A stretch of 62,091 nt of DNA from an uncultured Saprospiraceae bacterium. GTDB taxonomy: Bacteria; Bacteroidota; Bacteroidia; Chitinophagales; Saprospiraceae. Location: NCBI GenBank assembly GCA_937923345.1, contig CAKZVJ010000197.1, positions 1-62,091 on the forward strand. The letters run 5' to 3'. Below are positions 46,063 through 50,948 of the stretch, piece after piece. How positions within the stretch are numbered: position 1 is the first letter of the stretch; every line of letters begins with the position of its first letter. Under the pieces are notes generated by a model, which saw only the letters and a list, made by a program, of their open reading frames with translations, searched no databases and was not told where the DNA came from. Made by a program: the position numbers and the translations under genes.

Positions 46063-46935
46063 TTATGACAAGGCATCATTATCATTCCGCAAAGAGACAT
46101 GTAATTCTTCCCCACATATTCTGCAAAATCTTGCATCATCTCGGTGGTGATCTTCTCCGCAGTCTGAACAAACTTGCGTATTGAGGTCAATTACTTTTTT
46201 GTTATTTTCTTTGACCATCTCTGCAGATACAATCCCCGTAGGCACTGCTATCACGGCATATCCTAATATCATCACCACCGAGGCCAAAAACTGTCCTAGT
46301 GGAGTAGAGGGGGTGATGTCTCCATAGCCCACCGTGGTCAAGGTGACGATCGCCCAGTATATAGAAGTAGGGATGCTGGAGAAATCTTCATTGAATCCTC
46401 CTTCTACCAAGTACATCACGGAGCCTAAGATGATGGTCATCAAAAATACAAAAGTCAGAAACACTGCTATTTTTTGCCTGCTGGCTTTGAGAGAGTCGAT
46501 GATATATTGACTCTCTTTGAGAAAGTTAGCGAGCTTAAATATTCTAAATACCCGCATCAATCTCAAGGCGCGTACCACGATGAGAAAGTGACTGTTGGGC
46601 AAGAAAAGTTCTAGGTAAGTAGGGATGGTCGCAAGCAAATCTATGATTCCAAAAAAGCTGGTCGCGTACTTGATCGGTCTGTGCACACAATATAGGCGCA
46701 AAGCATATTCAACGGTAAAAAAAATGGTGAAGAACCATTCCAAGACAGACAATTGGGCCTCGTACTTCACTTTGAACCAATCTATACTCTCCAGCATCAC
46801 CGTGATGACACTCAATACGATAATCACCATCAATATGATGTCAAACCATTTTCCAGCTTTTGTGTCCGCTTCGAAAATGATTTCATGTATCCGCTCTCGC
46901 GCAGGACTGAAATCTGATTTTACTTTTTTTGCCAT
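46063..46935 (-). CDS. Voltage-gated-type K+ channel with C-terminal zinc ribbon
   Basis: Six-helix ion channel of 290 residues. The S4-like segment IVVRALRLMRVFRIFKLANF carries regularly spaced Arg residues, the pore helix and filter read TLTTVGYGDITPSTPLG, and S6 follows. This is the Kv/ion transporter family. The cytoplasmic tail is unusual: QVCSDCGEDHHRDDARFCRICGEEL, two CxxC pairs with intervening His, a probable zinc ribbon. No RCK or cyclic-nucleotide domain. Gating by metal or redox is possible but inferred. Single gene. Confidence 0.9.
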   Translation of the reverse strand: MAKKVKSDFSPARERIHEIIFEADTKAGKWFDIILMVIIVLSVITVMLESIDWFKVKYEAQLSVLEWFFTIFFTVEYALRLYCVHRPIKYATSFFGIIDLLATIPTYLELFLPNSHFLIVVRALRLMRVFRIFKLANFLKESQYIIDSLKASRQKIAVFLTFVFLMTIILGSVMYLVEGGFNEDFSSIPTSIYWAIVTLTTVGYGDITPSTPLGQFLASVVMILGYAVIAVPTGIVSAEMVKENNKKVIDLNTQVCSDCGEDHHRDDARFCRICGEELHVSLRNDNDALS

Positions 46936-47757: not shown

Positions 47758-48519
47758 GTGATAAGAGCGATTATTATTGAGGATGAGTTGAATAGCCTCA
47801 AAAATCTAAAAAATTTAATCCAAGAGCATTGTCCTGATATTGAATTATTAGGGACAGCTACTAGTGTAGCGGAGGGTCAGGTACTACTACAAAATCTAGG
47901 TACCAAGATTGATCTAGCCTTCATGGATATTCAGTTATCAGATGGATTGATTTTTAACCTATTGGATCAAAATCCCAACATCACGTTTAATATTATTTTC
48001 GTGACTGCCTTTTCTGAGTATGCTATTCAGGCCTGTAGATATAGTTCTATCGACTATGTGCAGAAACCTATAGATCCAGATAAATTGGTAGAGGCGGTGA
48101 GTCGTTATTCACCCAGAGCAGACGAATCGATCAGTGAACGCTTGGATGTATTCAGAGAGTACTACACCAATCCTAACATATTTTCAAAGATGAGTATCTC
48201 CGCAGTAGACGGAATCTACTTTGTAAATATCAAAGATATAGTCAGATTAGAAGGAGAAGATAACTACACGCATATCTTTTTGGAAAACAAGCAGAAGATA
48301 ACGGTTTCCAAAACTATAAAGTGGTATGCTGATTTATTGGAAAACAAAAATTTCTTTCGTGTACACAAAAAGCATGTGATCAATTTGAACTACATGCAAA
48401 AGTTTGTGAAAGGAGAGGGCGGATATCTTATAATGGATGATAGCAAAGAGATAGAAGTATCGAGAAGAAGAAGACCTGCTTTTATACAGCAGTTAAAGAA
48501 TATGCAAATGGGAATGTAA
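47758..48519 (+). CDS. LytTR-family response regulator
   Basis: Protein of 253 residues from a GTG start. The receiver domain has the acidic pair in IIIEDELNSL, the phospho-acceptor Asp in LAFMDIQLSDG, Thr in FVTAFSEYAI and Lys in YVQKPIDP. The C-terminal LytTR DNA-binding domain follows (IVRLEGEDNYTHIFLENKQK to FFRVHKKHVINLNYM). It should bind direct repeats upstream of target genes. It is followed by a double-glycine peptide gene (108 bases) and a TPR histidine kinase, which together form a likely signalling cassette. LytTR regulators control bacteriocin and pheromone genes in other phyla (AgrA, ComE, PlnC). Confidence 0.93.
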   Translation: MIRAIIIEDELNSLKNLKNLIQEHCPDIELLGTATSVAEGQVLLQNLGTKIDLAFMDIQLSDGLIFNLLDQNPNITFNIIFVTAFSEYAIQACRYSSIDYVQKPIDPDKLVEAVSRYSPRADESISERLDVFREYYTNPNIFSKMSISAVDGIYFVNIKDIVRLEGEDNYTHIFLENKQKITVSKTIKWYADLLENKNFFRVHKKHVINLNYMQKFVKGEGGYLIMDDSKEIEVSRRRRPAFIQQLKNMQMGM

Positions 48520-48626
48520 TACGACAATGTAGTATTACCTCTCAGACGCAAAAGGGATTGTGTTTTTTTTGGAAAGCGCAATATTGTATTTACTGACAAT
48601 TTTTAACATTACGAAAATCCTATACT

Positions 48627-48764
48627 ATGGGAAAATTGGTTAAACTTCAGGACTTGAAGAAGGACCTGTTTGTACTCGACCTTGTGGATATGCAAAAAAT
48701 CAAGGGAGGAAGCAAGCGATCATTTTTCTGGTTTGGTGGTTGGGGAGGTACTGTACCTCACTGA
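48627..48764 (+). CDS. Double-glycine leader peptide, putative pheromone or bacteriocin precursor
   Basis: A 45-residue precursor. The leader ends LDLVDMQKIKGG, which fits the GG-leader consensus LSxxELxxIxGG position by position: Leu-12, Asp-11, Asp-8, Met-7, Ile-4, Gly-2, Gly-1. Cleavage would release the 17-residue core SKRSFFWFGGWGGTVPH, with five aromatics, two basic residues and four Gly. GG leaders are cut and exported by C39-peptidase ABC transporters; none is encoded in this window. There is no Cys, so no lanthionine. It lies between the LytTR regulator and TPR kinase genes on the same strand. A signalling peptide is my first choice, an antimicrobial the second. Confidence 0.8.
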   Translation: MGKLVKLQDLKKDLFVLDLVDMQKIKGGSKRSFFWFGGWGGTVPH

Positions 48765-48840
48765 TTCACTGTCAAGAAATTAACGGGGCACAGTTTTGTG
48801 TACCCGTTTTTGTTATTTTTTGTCTTTACTGTTTTGTCCT

Positions 48841-50745
48841 ATGTATACAGAATCTATTTCTCGACTCGAACAAGCTATTCTATCTAGCGAAGAGCCTATC
48901 CAACGACTTCGTATGCTTGATCAATTGACTGATCAGCTTATTTACACTGATAATAAGAGAGCAAAATTTGCTATTCATCAAATGGAGATGCTGCTAAGGG
49001 AGCATAAAGAGCCTGAGATATTTTTGAGCTATTTGCTGAAAGCAGGAGTGATTCATAATCAAGACTACGATTATGAATTGGCTGAGAGTATGTTTAAAAA
49101 TGCGATCGAAATTTTAGAAACATCTGGGGACGTCAAAGAACAAATCGAAGCATATATTGACTTTGCCGGAGTTTGTATCAATCTGGACAAACTAGATGTA
49201 GCTAGGTATTACATTGCTAAAGCAGAGCGTATATTGCGTGATTTTCCTGAACCAAAACTAAAAGCAAGACTACTCTGTAGAGAAGCAGGAGTACTGCTCA
49301 AAGCAGAAAATTATGATAAGGCGCTTTCTGTTTTTCACAAAGCGCAAAAGAGATTCGATAAGGCGGTAGCCTTAGAAACTAAAGATTATTATTTCCAAAC
49401 AGTCATCCAAAGTGGACTGGGTAATATCTTTGAGCACAACGGCGATGTGAAGCAGAGCGTACAGGCCTATACCAATGTGGTAGACATCTGCGAAAAGAAT
49501 AAAATCAAAGGCCGGATGAGCTGGCACTATCTATTGTGTGGCTTAGGCTACATCGCTTTGGAAGAATATGAAACGGCAAAATCATTTTTTGAAAAATCAA
49601 TATCGACCACCGATGATGATAGTATGGCTGCTAAAGCGGGAGCTTATGCCAATGCTGGGTACTGCCTATTCGAACAAGGCGAAAACAAAAAAGCATTAGA
49701 AAAATATATTGCTGCAGAGAATATTTACGATCAGCAAGAAAAGAAGGATTTAAAGAATCTTTTCTATTTACAACTATGGAAAGCGGAGGCGTACTTACGA
49801 TTGAATAAAAACCAAAAGCGGTCAGATTCTCTTCTCCGCGCTTTTGAGTATGCTAAAGCTAGTGGGAGCAATAAATTATTGGCTATCATGTACCAGTCGA
49901 TTGCTGCTTTTTATGCAGAACAAGAAAACTTCGAAATGGCCTATAAGTATCAATTGATGCACACCAACCATAACGAAGAATATCAACAGGAAGTAAAAGC
50001 AAGAAAAATCACTGAGCTCCAAATAAAGTACGACGCACAAAGAAAGGAGCAAGAATCAGAACTACTGCGTTTGGAGTCAAAAAAGCTTCAGCTAAAAGCC
50101 TTGAGAGCGCAGATGAATCCTCATTTTATTCATAATGCACTCAACTCTATACAGGGCTATATAAGTTCTAATGAAAAAGAAAATGCAGCCAAATACCTTG
50201 CGCAATTTGCGAGCCTAATCAGAAAGAGTCTTTACTATTCTGATATAGAAAGTTTATCTCTTGAAGACGAGGTAGAATTTCTCAAAGAGTATTTAGCCAT
50301 CAATAAAAAACTACGCTACTCTGATCAGATGTCTTACCTGGTCAAGGTAGATGAAGACCTAGAGGAGGACTTGACTTGTCTACCGAGTATGATCGTGCAG
50401 CCTTATGTAGAAAATGCATTAGAGCACGGCATACGAACTAGAAGCGATGGTAAGTTGCTGGTAGAGTTTCTGTATCATACCGACGATACTATCAAGTGCA
50501 TTATTGAAGATAACGGAATCGGAAGAGTAAAAGCAGGCGAAATTCAAGCCAAGGGGGGGTATCATGAGCAGCATAAGTCCATGGGCACCTCTATTACCCA
50601 AAAGAGATTGGAAGTCCTCAAATCTAGCCTTAATAGCCCCGACCTATCTGTAGAAACCATCGACTTGTATGACAAAAATACAGGCAAAGCTATGGGGACA
50701 AGGGTAGTACTGATCCTCCCCGTTGTCGATTTTAAACTCAAATAG
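48841..50745 (+). CDS. Cytoplasmic TPR histidine kinase, LytS/YehU-like catalytic part
   Basis: Protein of 634 residues. Residues 1-390 are about eight TPR-like units (for example YELAESMFKNAIEILETSGD). A coiled coil (QRKEQESELLRLESKKLQLK) and a His_kinase (PF06580) module follow. The phospho-acceptor His is in QMNPHFIHNALNSI, and HATPase motifs are IVQPYVENALEHGI and IIEDNGIGRVKAG. Unlike most Bacteroidota TPR kinases there is no transmembrane helix between TPRs and kinase. The ATG at 48841 gives no signal peptide, so it should be soluble. The frame also opens at a GTG at 48796. The likely partner is the LytTR regulator two genes upstream. Confidence 0.9.
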   Translation: MYTESISRLEQAILSSEEPIQRLRMLDQLTDQLIYTDNKRAKFAIHQMEMLLREHKEPEIFLSYLLKAGVIHNQDYDYELAESMFKNAIEILETSGDVKEQIEAYIDFAGVCINLDKLDVARYYIAKAERILRDFPEPKLKARLLCREAGVLLKAENYDKALSVFHKAQKRFDKAVALETKDYYFQTVIQSGLGNIFEHNGDVKQSVQAYTNVVDICEKNKIKGRMSWHYLLCGLGYIALEEYETAKSFFEKSISTTDDDSMAAKAGAYANAGYCLFEQGENKKALEKYIAAENIYDQQEKKDLKNLFYLQLWKAEAYLRLNKNQKRSDSLLRAFEYAKASGSNKLLAIMYQSIAAFYAEQENFEMAYKYQLMHTNHNEEYQQEVKARKITELQIKYDAQRKEQESELLRLESKKLQLKALRAQMNPHFIHNALNSIQGYISSNEKENAAKYLAQFASLIRKSLYYSDIESLSLEDEVEFLKEYLAINKKLRYSDQMSYLVKVDEDLEEDLTCLPSMIVQPYVENALEHGIRTRSDGKLLVEFLYHTDDTIKCIIEDNGIGRVKAGEIQAKGGYHEQHKSMGTSITQKRLEVLKSSLNSPDLSVETIDLYDKNTGKAMGTRVVLILPVVDFKLK

Positions 50746-50905
50746 CTCCATTTCGACCATATTTTAGGCAAGACTGACGACCGCTTTCTAAGCCAAAGGA
50801 ACCACTTCTATATCATTTGCTACACCCCCGTCAAAGTGGCTAACATATAACATAAAACACTCATATATTTATCCTAGTTTTCTCATAGTATGTTTGTTTA
50901 ATCTT

Positions 50906-50948
50906 CCTGCATCTTACTCCCTTTTAGATGCAGGGATTTTTTTTTGTA
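50906..50948 (+). terminator. Terminator of the kinase transcript
   Basis: CCTGCATCT (50906-50914) pairs with AGATGCAGG (50926-50934), followed by GATTTTTTTTTT. It lies 160 bases after the kinase stop. The surrounding 50746-51160 gap holds no gene that I can support. Confidence 0.85.

Follow-up and report, generated by a model that had tools for sequence, protein, structure and literature searches.

Layout of the locus

The window, by which we mean the whole 62,091-nucleotide stretch of DNA analysed here, derives from an uncultured Saprospiraceae bacterium and carries three neighbouring genes for a LytTR-family response regulator, a short peptide precursor with a double-glycine (GG) leader and a TPR histidine kinase. 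These genes and the signals around them are as follows.

47758..48519, plus strand: LytTR-family response regulator with receiver and LytTR DNA-binding domains, GTG start (Pfam Response_reg, 1.7e-10; LytTR, 3.5e-18)
48586..48626, plus strand: conserved block ahead of the peptide gene, TATTTACTGACAATTTTTAACA ... AAAATCCTATACT, kept in four genus members and interpreted as promoter and 5'UTR; the promoter role is putative
48627..48764, plus strand: 45-residue GG-leader peptide precursor, with family-wide conservation in this slot, dN below dS and synonymous conservation
48627-48710, plus strand: peptide leader, residues 1-28
48711-48761, plus strand: predicted peptide core, residues 29-45, SKRSFFWFGGWGGTVPH
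48782..48813, plus strand: intrinsic-terminator-like hairpin between the peptide and kinase genes (fold -16.7 kcal/mol, z -3.2)
48841..50745, plus strand: TPR histidine kinase, predicted to be soluble (Pfam TPR_12, 6e-16; His_kinase, 3.3e-20), with a TPR solenoid at residues ~2-360, a long helix with the phospho-acceptor region (QMNPHF) and a HATPase domain
50904..50945, plus strand: intrinsic terminator 3' of the kinase gene (-15.8 kcal/mol, z -4.9), followed by a T-run

The first-pass annotation had proposed the three same-strand genes, and the Pfam domains agree with it. The 45-residue double-glycine precursor reads MGKLVKLQDLKKDLFVLDLVDMQKIKGG followed by SKRSFFWFGGWGGTVPH, with the 17-residue core that had been expected, and folding supported the terminator suspected near 50906 as a hairpin at 50904-50945 with a T-run. 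A kinase start at TTG 48796 was dropped, ATG 48841 being the most likely start. On the minus strand, positions 46063-46935 of the window encode a voltage-gated ion channel with a C-terminal zinc-ribbon match (Pfam); in many relatives a gene that matches it in size and orientation precedes the LytTR gene, as though it belonged to a conserved neighbourhood.

The hairpin after the peptide stop is maintained in six genus members despite differing stem sequences, and a hairpin in the peptide-kinase gap was seen in most other genera inspected. Upstream of the peptide gene, TACYTTTAC-like motifs occur in many genera and resemble what we take to be the Bacteroidota -7 promoter element. Given that a terminator-like hairpin lies directly 3' of the peptide stop, the three genes probably do not form a single simple operon, and the conserved upstream block together with this hairpin suggests that the peptide gene is probably transcribed separately as a short RNA with its own promoter-like block and terminator. 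Between the source genome and either G004 or G002, 85-90% of same-residue codons in the peptide gene are identical, compared to 47-59% in the two flanking genes, where none of 160 windows of 45 codons exceeded 68%. Synonymous conservation of this kind is what strong selection on codon use in a highly expressed gene would produce, as would a constraint at the RNA level; no Rfam RNA matched the peptide region significantly.

The peptide family in Saprospiraceae

A profile search of 248 genomes of Saprospiraceae and relatives, together with an alignment (A1) of 17 GG peptides from the first 21 kinase loci (source genome and relatives), placed the short open reading frame in a broad family. A relative of the peptide was present in 106 of the 248 genomes and an orthologue of the kinase in 123; both were found in 103 genomes, the peptide only in 3, the kinase only in 20 and neither in 122 (Fisher p 1e-44). 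In one of the three peptide-only genomes (G005), the contig ends just past the peptide, and of the 20 genomes with the kinase only, 7 hold a divergent GG peptide where the usual one would lie, with two such peptides in one of these 7. The carriers of the peptide include a culturable bacterium, Lewinella sp. JB7 (L066). As the first-pass annotation had anticipated, relatives carry a conserved short reading frame beside the LytTR and TPR-kinase genes: among 40 fetched loci, counted from gene maps, the gene immediately 5' of the peptide was LytTR in 35 and the gene immediately 3' was the kinase in 28. Such conservation at the same place in dozens of genera is far beyond chance, and on this comparative basis we conclude that the short reading frame is a real gene. 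The non-coding substitution pattern that had been named as evidence against it was not seen. Among the source genome, G002, G004 and G005, dN was 0.03-0.06 and dS 0.15-0.55 for the peptide gene, a difference that indicates selection on the encoded protein.

The family appears to be confined in its distribution. All 31 matches of an order-level search fell in Saprospiraceae, 395 genomes of the phylum gave, beyond Saprospiraceae, just two leader-only matches, to unrelated GG peptides, and no plasmid-borne copies were found. We read the cassette as family-wide and chromosomal. The peptide reached no Pfam or NCBIfam cut-off and is unannotated. Its leader resembles GG leaders, and single members matched TIGR04149, TIGR01847 or Bacteriocin_IIc weakly and below cut-off (for TIGR04149, the best E among 21 members was 6e-4, short of the cut-off, and the window peptide gave no match); given that none of these matches is convincing, the peptide family has no existing model. 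It thus defines an unannotated gene family, short enough for gene callers to miss.

The core is mostly 16-20 residues long, variable and often lysine-rich, and its C-terminal end is conserved. The consensus of this end is C-G-G-I-[VL]-P-Q, represented in the source genome by WGGTVPH; of 77 peptides, 50 have C at position -7, 58 G at -6, 54 G at -5, 51 I at -4, 71 P at -2 and 62 Q at -1. The rows of this conservation table were picked for containing GG, so the invariance of the leader GG is by construction; the C-terminus was no selection criterion, yet it was included in the profile. In genus g102 (G107 and G196; L185 3051-3215 and L190 3048-3215), the peptide between regulator and kinase has lost the GG motif and kept the C-terminal KWNSRCGDLLPH, with 92% nucleotide identity across the last 12 codons and the stop. 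Since the end is conserved, and kept even where g102 lost GG, the C-terminal stretch is most likely the working part of the peptide.

Other short GG peptides came to light as well. A separate family with PPP-containing cores (L236 79-234; L237 2566-3150) occurs once in tandem and lies beside a gene starting MKIGIIREEKNPPDSRVPL, and unrelated Cys-containing GG peptides were seen in other Bacteroidota families (L229 1501-2078, a tandem pair; L228 1417-1629).

Predicted export, the TPR kinase and a second cassette

The first-pass annotation had suggested looking for a C39-peptidase ABC transporter elsewhere in the genome, and three are encoded there, two with HlyD partners and none linked to the peptide locus. 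Across the family, a C39 domain was present in 103 of the 106 peptide genomes versus 152 of 248 overall. Loss of the peptide was verified in six genomes: G014, where regulator and kinase lie 18 bp apart with the peptide absent, and three genomes of genus g26 are without any C39 domain, and two of genus g28 keep one. Peptide loss and C39 loss were associated (p 7e-5), with the four C39-free genomes representing only about two independent events. In the kinase tree, made by a quick method and containing several long branches, the losses fall among peptide bearers and well-supported branches force at least three changes. No relatives of the peptide were seen near the C39 operons of the source genome. 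At one of its exporter loci (L202, G000:C294, 1148-6584), the C39 ABC exporter is followed by a 401-residue protein that matches nothing in Pfam and a 657-residue protein with a lantibiotic-dehydratase N-terminal match, a possible RiPP cluster.

No hydrophobic segment was found in the kinase in any of 17 orthologues, and in the AlphaFold model (mean pLDDT 87.6) the TPR helices extend to residue ~360 and continue directly as a single long helix followed by the catalytic core. By sequence and model, then, the kinase is cytosolic and lacks a membrane sensor. Foldseek with the TPR model returned consensus and designed TPRs and LGN and, within the top 50, also RapI, NprR, Rap-phi3T with its pheromone and the Rap-CSF complex, a generic TPR similarity that cannot prove peptide binding. 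Positions 2, 5, 9, 12 and 13 of the repeats, which would face a ligand, were no more conserved than other helix-A positions; a conserved ligand groove was rejected on this test, leaving merely the local invariants N73-Q74, N114 and W228. The kinase gene lies apart from the regulator and peptide genes in G079, G135 and G207, and the co-occurrence holds despite this relocation; the kinase also survives loss of the peptide, as judged from the kinase tree.

A second cassette consists of a TPR protein (468 residues), a GG peptide ending in TVPH or IVPQ and another TPR protein (~230 residues), without kinase or regulator. It is present in the source genome (L224, G000:C124, 4023-6621), G001, G002, G004 and G005, its loci besides L224 being L177, L178, L179 and L241; in another genus (L209), a homologous TPR protein (26% identity, 3e-20) adjoins a CGNIVPQ peptide. 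These arrangements lend what looks like independent support to a link between the peptide and TPR proteins. A match between the C-termini of the two peptides within a genome (TVPH and TVPH in the source genome) fails in G002, G004 and G005, and no shared promoter element was found in the second cassette.

Proposed mechanism, alternatives and known systems

The explanation we consider best, and hold with slightly better than even confidence, is that the locus is a peptide-signalling two-component cassette of Saprospiraceae, whose ligand would be taken up and bound by the TPR kinase. The precursor would be produced from its own short transcript, and a C39-peptidase ABC exporter encoded elsewhere would recognise the leader, cut after Gly-Gly and release a free peptide of ~17 residues. 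The conserved C-terminus, CGG-I-[VL]-PQ or here WGGTVPH, would be the recognised part. After a presumed re-uptake, the peptide would control how active the cytosolic kinase is, most probably by docking in the TPR superhelix in the way that RRNPP receptors bind their own peptides, and the kinase would pass phosphate to the LytTR regulator, changing transcription, possibly including that of the peptide itself. We infer that the cassette may serve density or quorum sensing. The genes themselves, their conservation and synteny, the co-occurrence with C39, the lack of a membrane segment and the TPR fold of the model are direct observations; the p value of 1e-44, the fixed gene order, the conserved C-terminus, the C39 link, the soluble TPR kinase and the second cassette all argue for signalling. 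Several points speak against it: the ligand-facing TPR positions are not specially conserved, a cytosolic kinase would need re-uptake of an exported peptide, genus g102 has no GG motif with the C-terminus retained, and the C-terminus is almost uniform across the family, unlike species-specific pheromones. A more specific form of the signalling proposal, which we put forward tentatively and rate somewhat below an even chance, is an RRNPP-like intracellular peptide-sensing kinase in a Gram-negative phylum, in which the TPR domain of a soluble kinase with LytTR output recognises, inside the cell, the CGG-I-[VL]-PQ end of a C39-exported GG peptide, and stand-alone TPR proteins with a second peptide arose as a genus-level spin-off.

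The strongest rival, in our judgment unlikely, shares several of these facts. It holds that the peptide acts within the producing cell, its precursor or core being a regulatory subunit on the TPR kinase, and that C39 export does no more than set the cytoplasmic level, making it an export-status or private signal and not one between cells. A cytosolic kinase fits this, as do the g102 peptides that dropped GG and retained KWNSRCGDLLPH; the near-invariance of the C-terminus between genera also counts in its favour, given that this is expected of an internal ligand. However, outside g102 the GG leader is retained, and the presence of the peptide tracks that of C39. We considered it improbable that the peptide is instead an output, a bacteriocin or other secreted effector under the control of LytTR and the TPR kinase. 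That reading can draw on single members that weakly match GG-leader models of bacteriocins, on the tighter linkage of the peptide gene to the regulator gene (35/40 loci) than to the kinase gene (28/40), and on the promoter-like block, terminator and codon conservation, which fit a highly expressed product. In the locus maps, which list genes of >=130 residues and any relatives of the cassette genes and could thus miss a smaller gene, neither an immunity gene nor a transporter of its own recurs next to the peptide; in the source locus, the gap between peptide and kinase contains the terminator only. No extra gene recurs there that could be a linked modification enzyme, the library comparison having covered part of the neighbours, and the few sub-threshold matches to bacteriocin family models reached no cut-off. 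A bacteriocin regulon of several GG peptides sharing a leader was likewise rejected, the A1 profile giving one significant copy in the source genome. With no bacteriocin, immunity or modification gene recurring beside the peptide in these maps, and with this leader occurring only once in the source genome, the bacteriocin control proposed at first pass is not supported. An output would also sit poorly with the near-complete genome-level co-occurrence with one kinase, with a core end conserved family-wide and with the genus's second peptide, framed by TPR proteins without a regulator. Least probable, and in our view very much so, is that peptide and kinase are neighbours through ancient chromosomal synteny only, do not interact, and that the kinase senses something else. 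The genomes whose kinase gene sits apart from the other two genes, and the persistence of the kinase after peptide loss, are compatible with this; the co-occurrence persists where the kinase has moved, though, and a second, separate peptide-TPR pairing exists.

ComCDE, PlnABCD and BlpHR are GG-peptide two-component signalling systems of Firmicutes with a polytopic membrane kinase as receptor. In the cassette, as in these systems, the gene for a GG-leader peptide adjoins those for a LytTR regulator and a histidine kinase, and the genome encodes a C39 exporter; to the extent of the GG peptide and the LytTR regulator the first-pass analogy stands. The direct parallel fails, given that the Saprospiraceae kinase is of a predicted soluble TPR type without a membrane sensor; its exporter is also unlinked, its host belongs to Bacteroidota and its peptide C-terminus is conserved across a whole family, whereas the Firmicutes peptides are strain-specific. 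In encoding a TPR receptor candidate beside a small peptide gene, with a model matched by the RapI, NprR and Rap-phi3T structures, the cassette instead resembles the RRNPP systems (Rap, NprR, PlcR, PrgX). It differs from these in lacking an HTH or Rap-type effector, the output being a histidine kinase core and LytTR regulator, and in its C39-type GG leader, Gram-negative host and putative re-import; no specific RRNPP family model in Pfam matched the kinase. Since neither the membrane receptor of ComCDE nor the effector type of RRNPP is present, the cassette is part ComCDE-like and part RRNPP-like and a member of neither group.

Two kinds of Bacteroidota system come closer in host. The GG-leader RiPP clusters of Bacteroidales (TIGR04149) share the leader type and occasionally adjoin two-component genes or TPR proteins (PMC10352776); unlike them, the Saprospiraceae cassette shows no recurring modification gene, radical SAM or otherwise, in the mapped loci and keeps a fixed regulator-peptide-kinase order. 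FimS-type TPR histidine kinases likewise place a TPR region ahead of the kinase core, and HK_Porph_FimS (NCBIfam) matched weakly at 9e-6, but with 24 of 600 bits, far under the cut-off; the Saprospiraceae kinase lacks a membrane segment between TPR and core and has a peptide gene attached. The surveys of RRNPP intracellular peptide receptors consulted here cover Firmicutes (PMC10075063, PMC9765709). The literature searched, whose coverage is incomplete and to which any novelty is therefore relative, held no description of a Saprospiraceae peptide-TPR-kinase cassette and no established peptide cell-to-cell signal in Bacteroidota. Within that literature, the cassette looks like a peptide signalling system of an undescribed build. 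It offers a concrete, family-wide signal candidate for Bacteroidota, with a short predicted ligand, a purifiable soluble candidate receptor and a dedicated regulator, so that signalling can be tested directly with synthetic peptide. Should the peptide prove to be a ligand of the TPR kinase, one two-component system would here combine two designs that are separate in Firmicutes: pheromones exported by way of a GG leader, and TPR receptors inside the cell.
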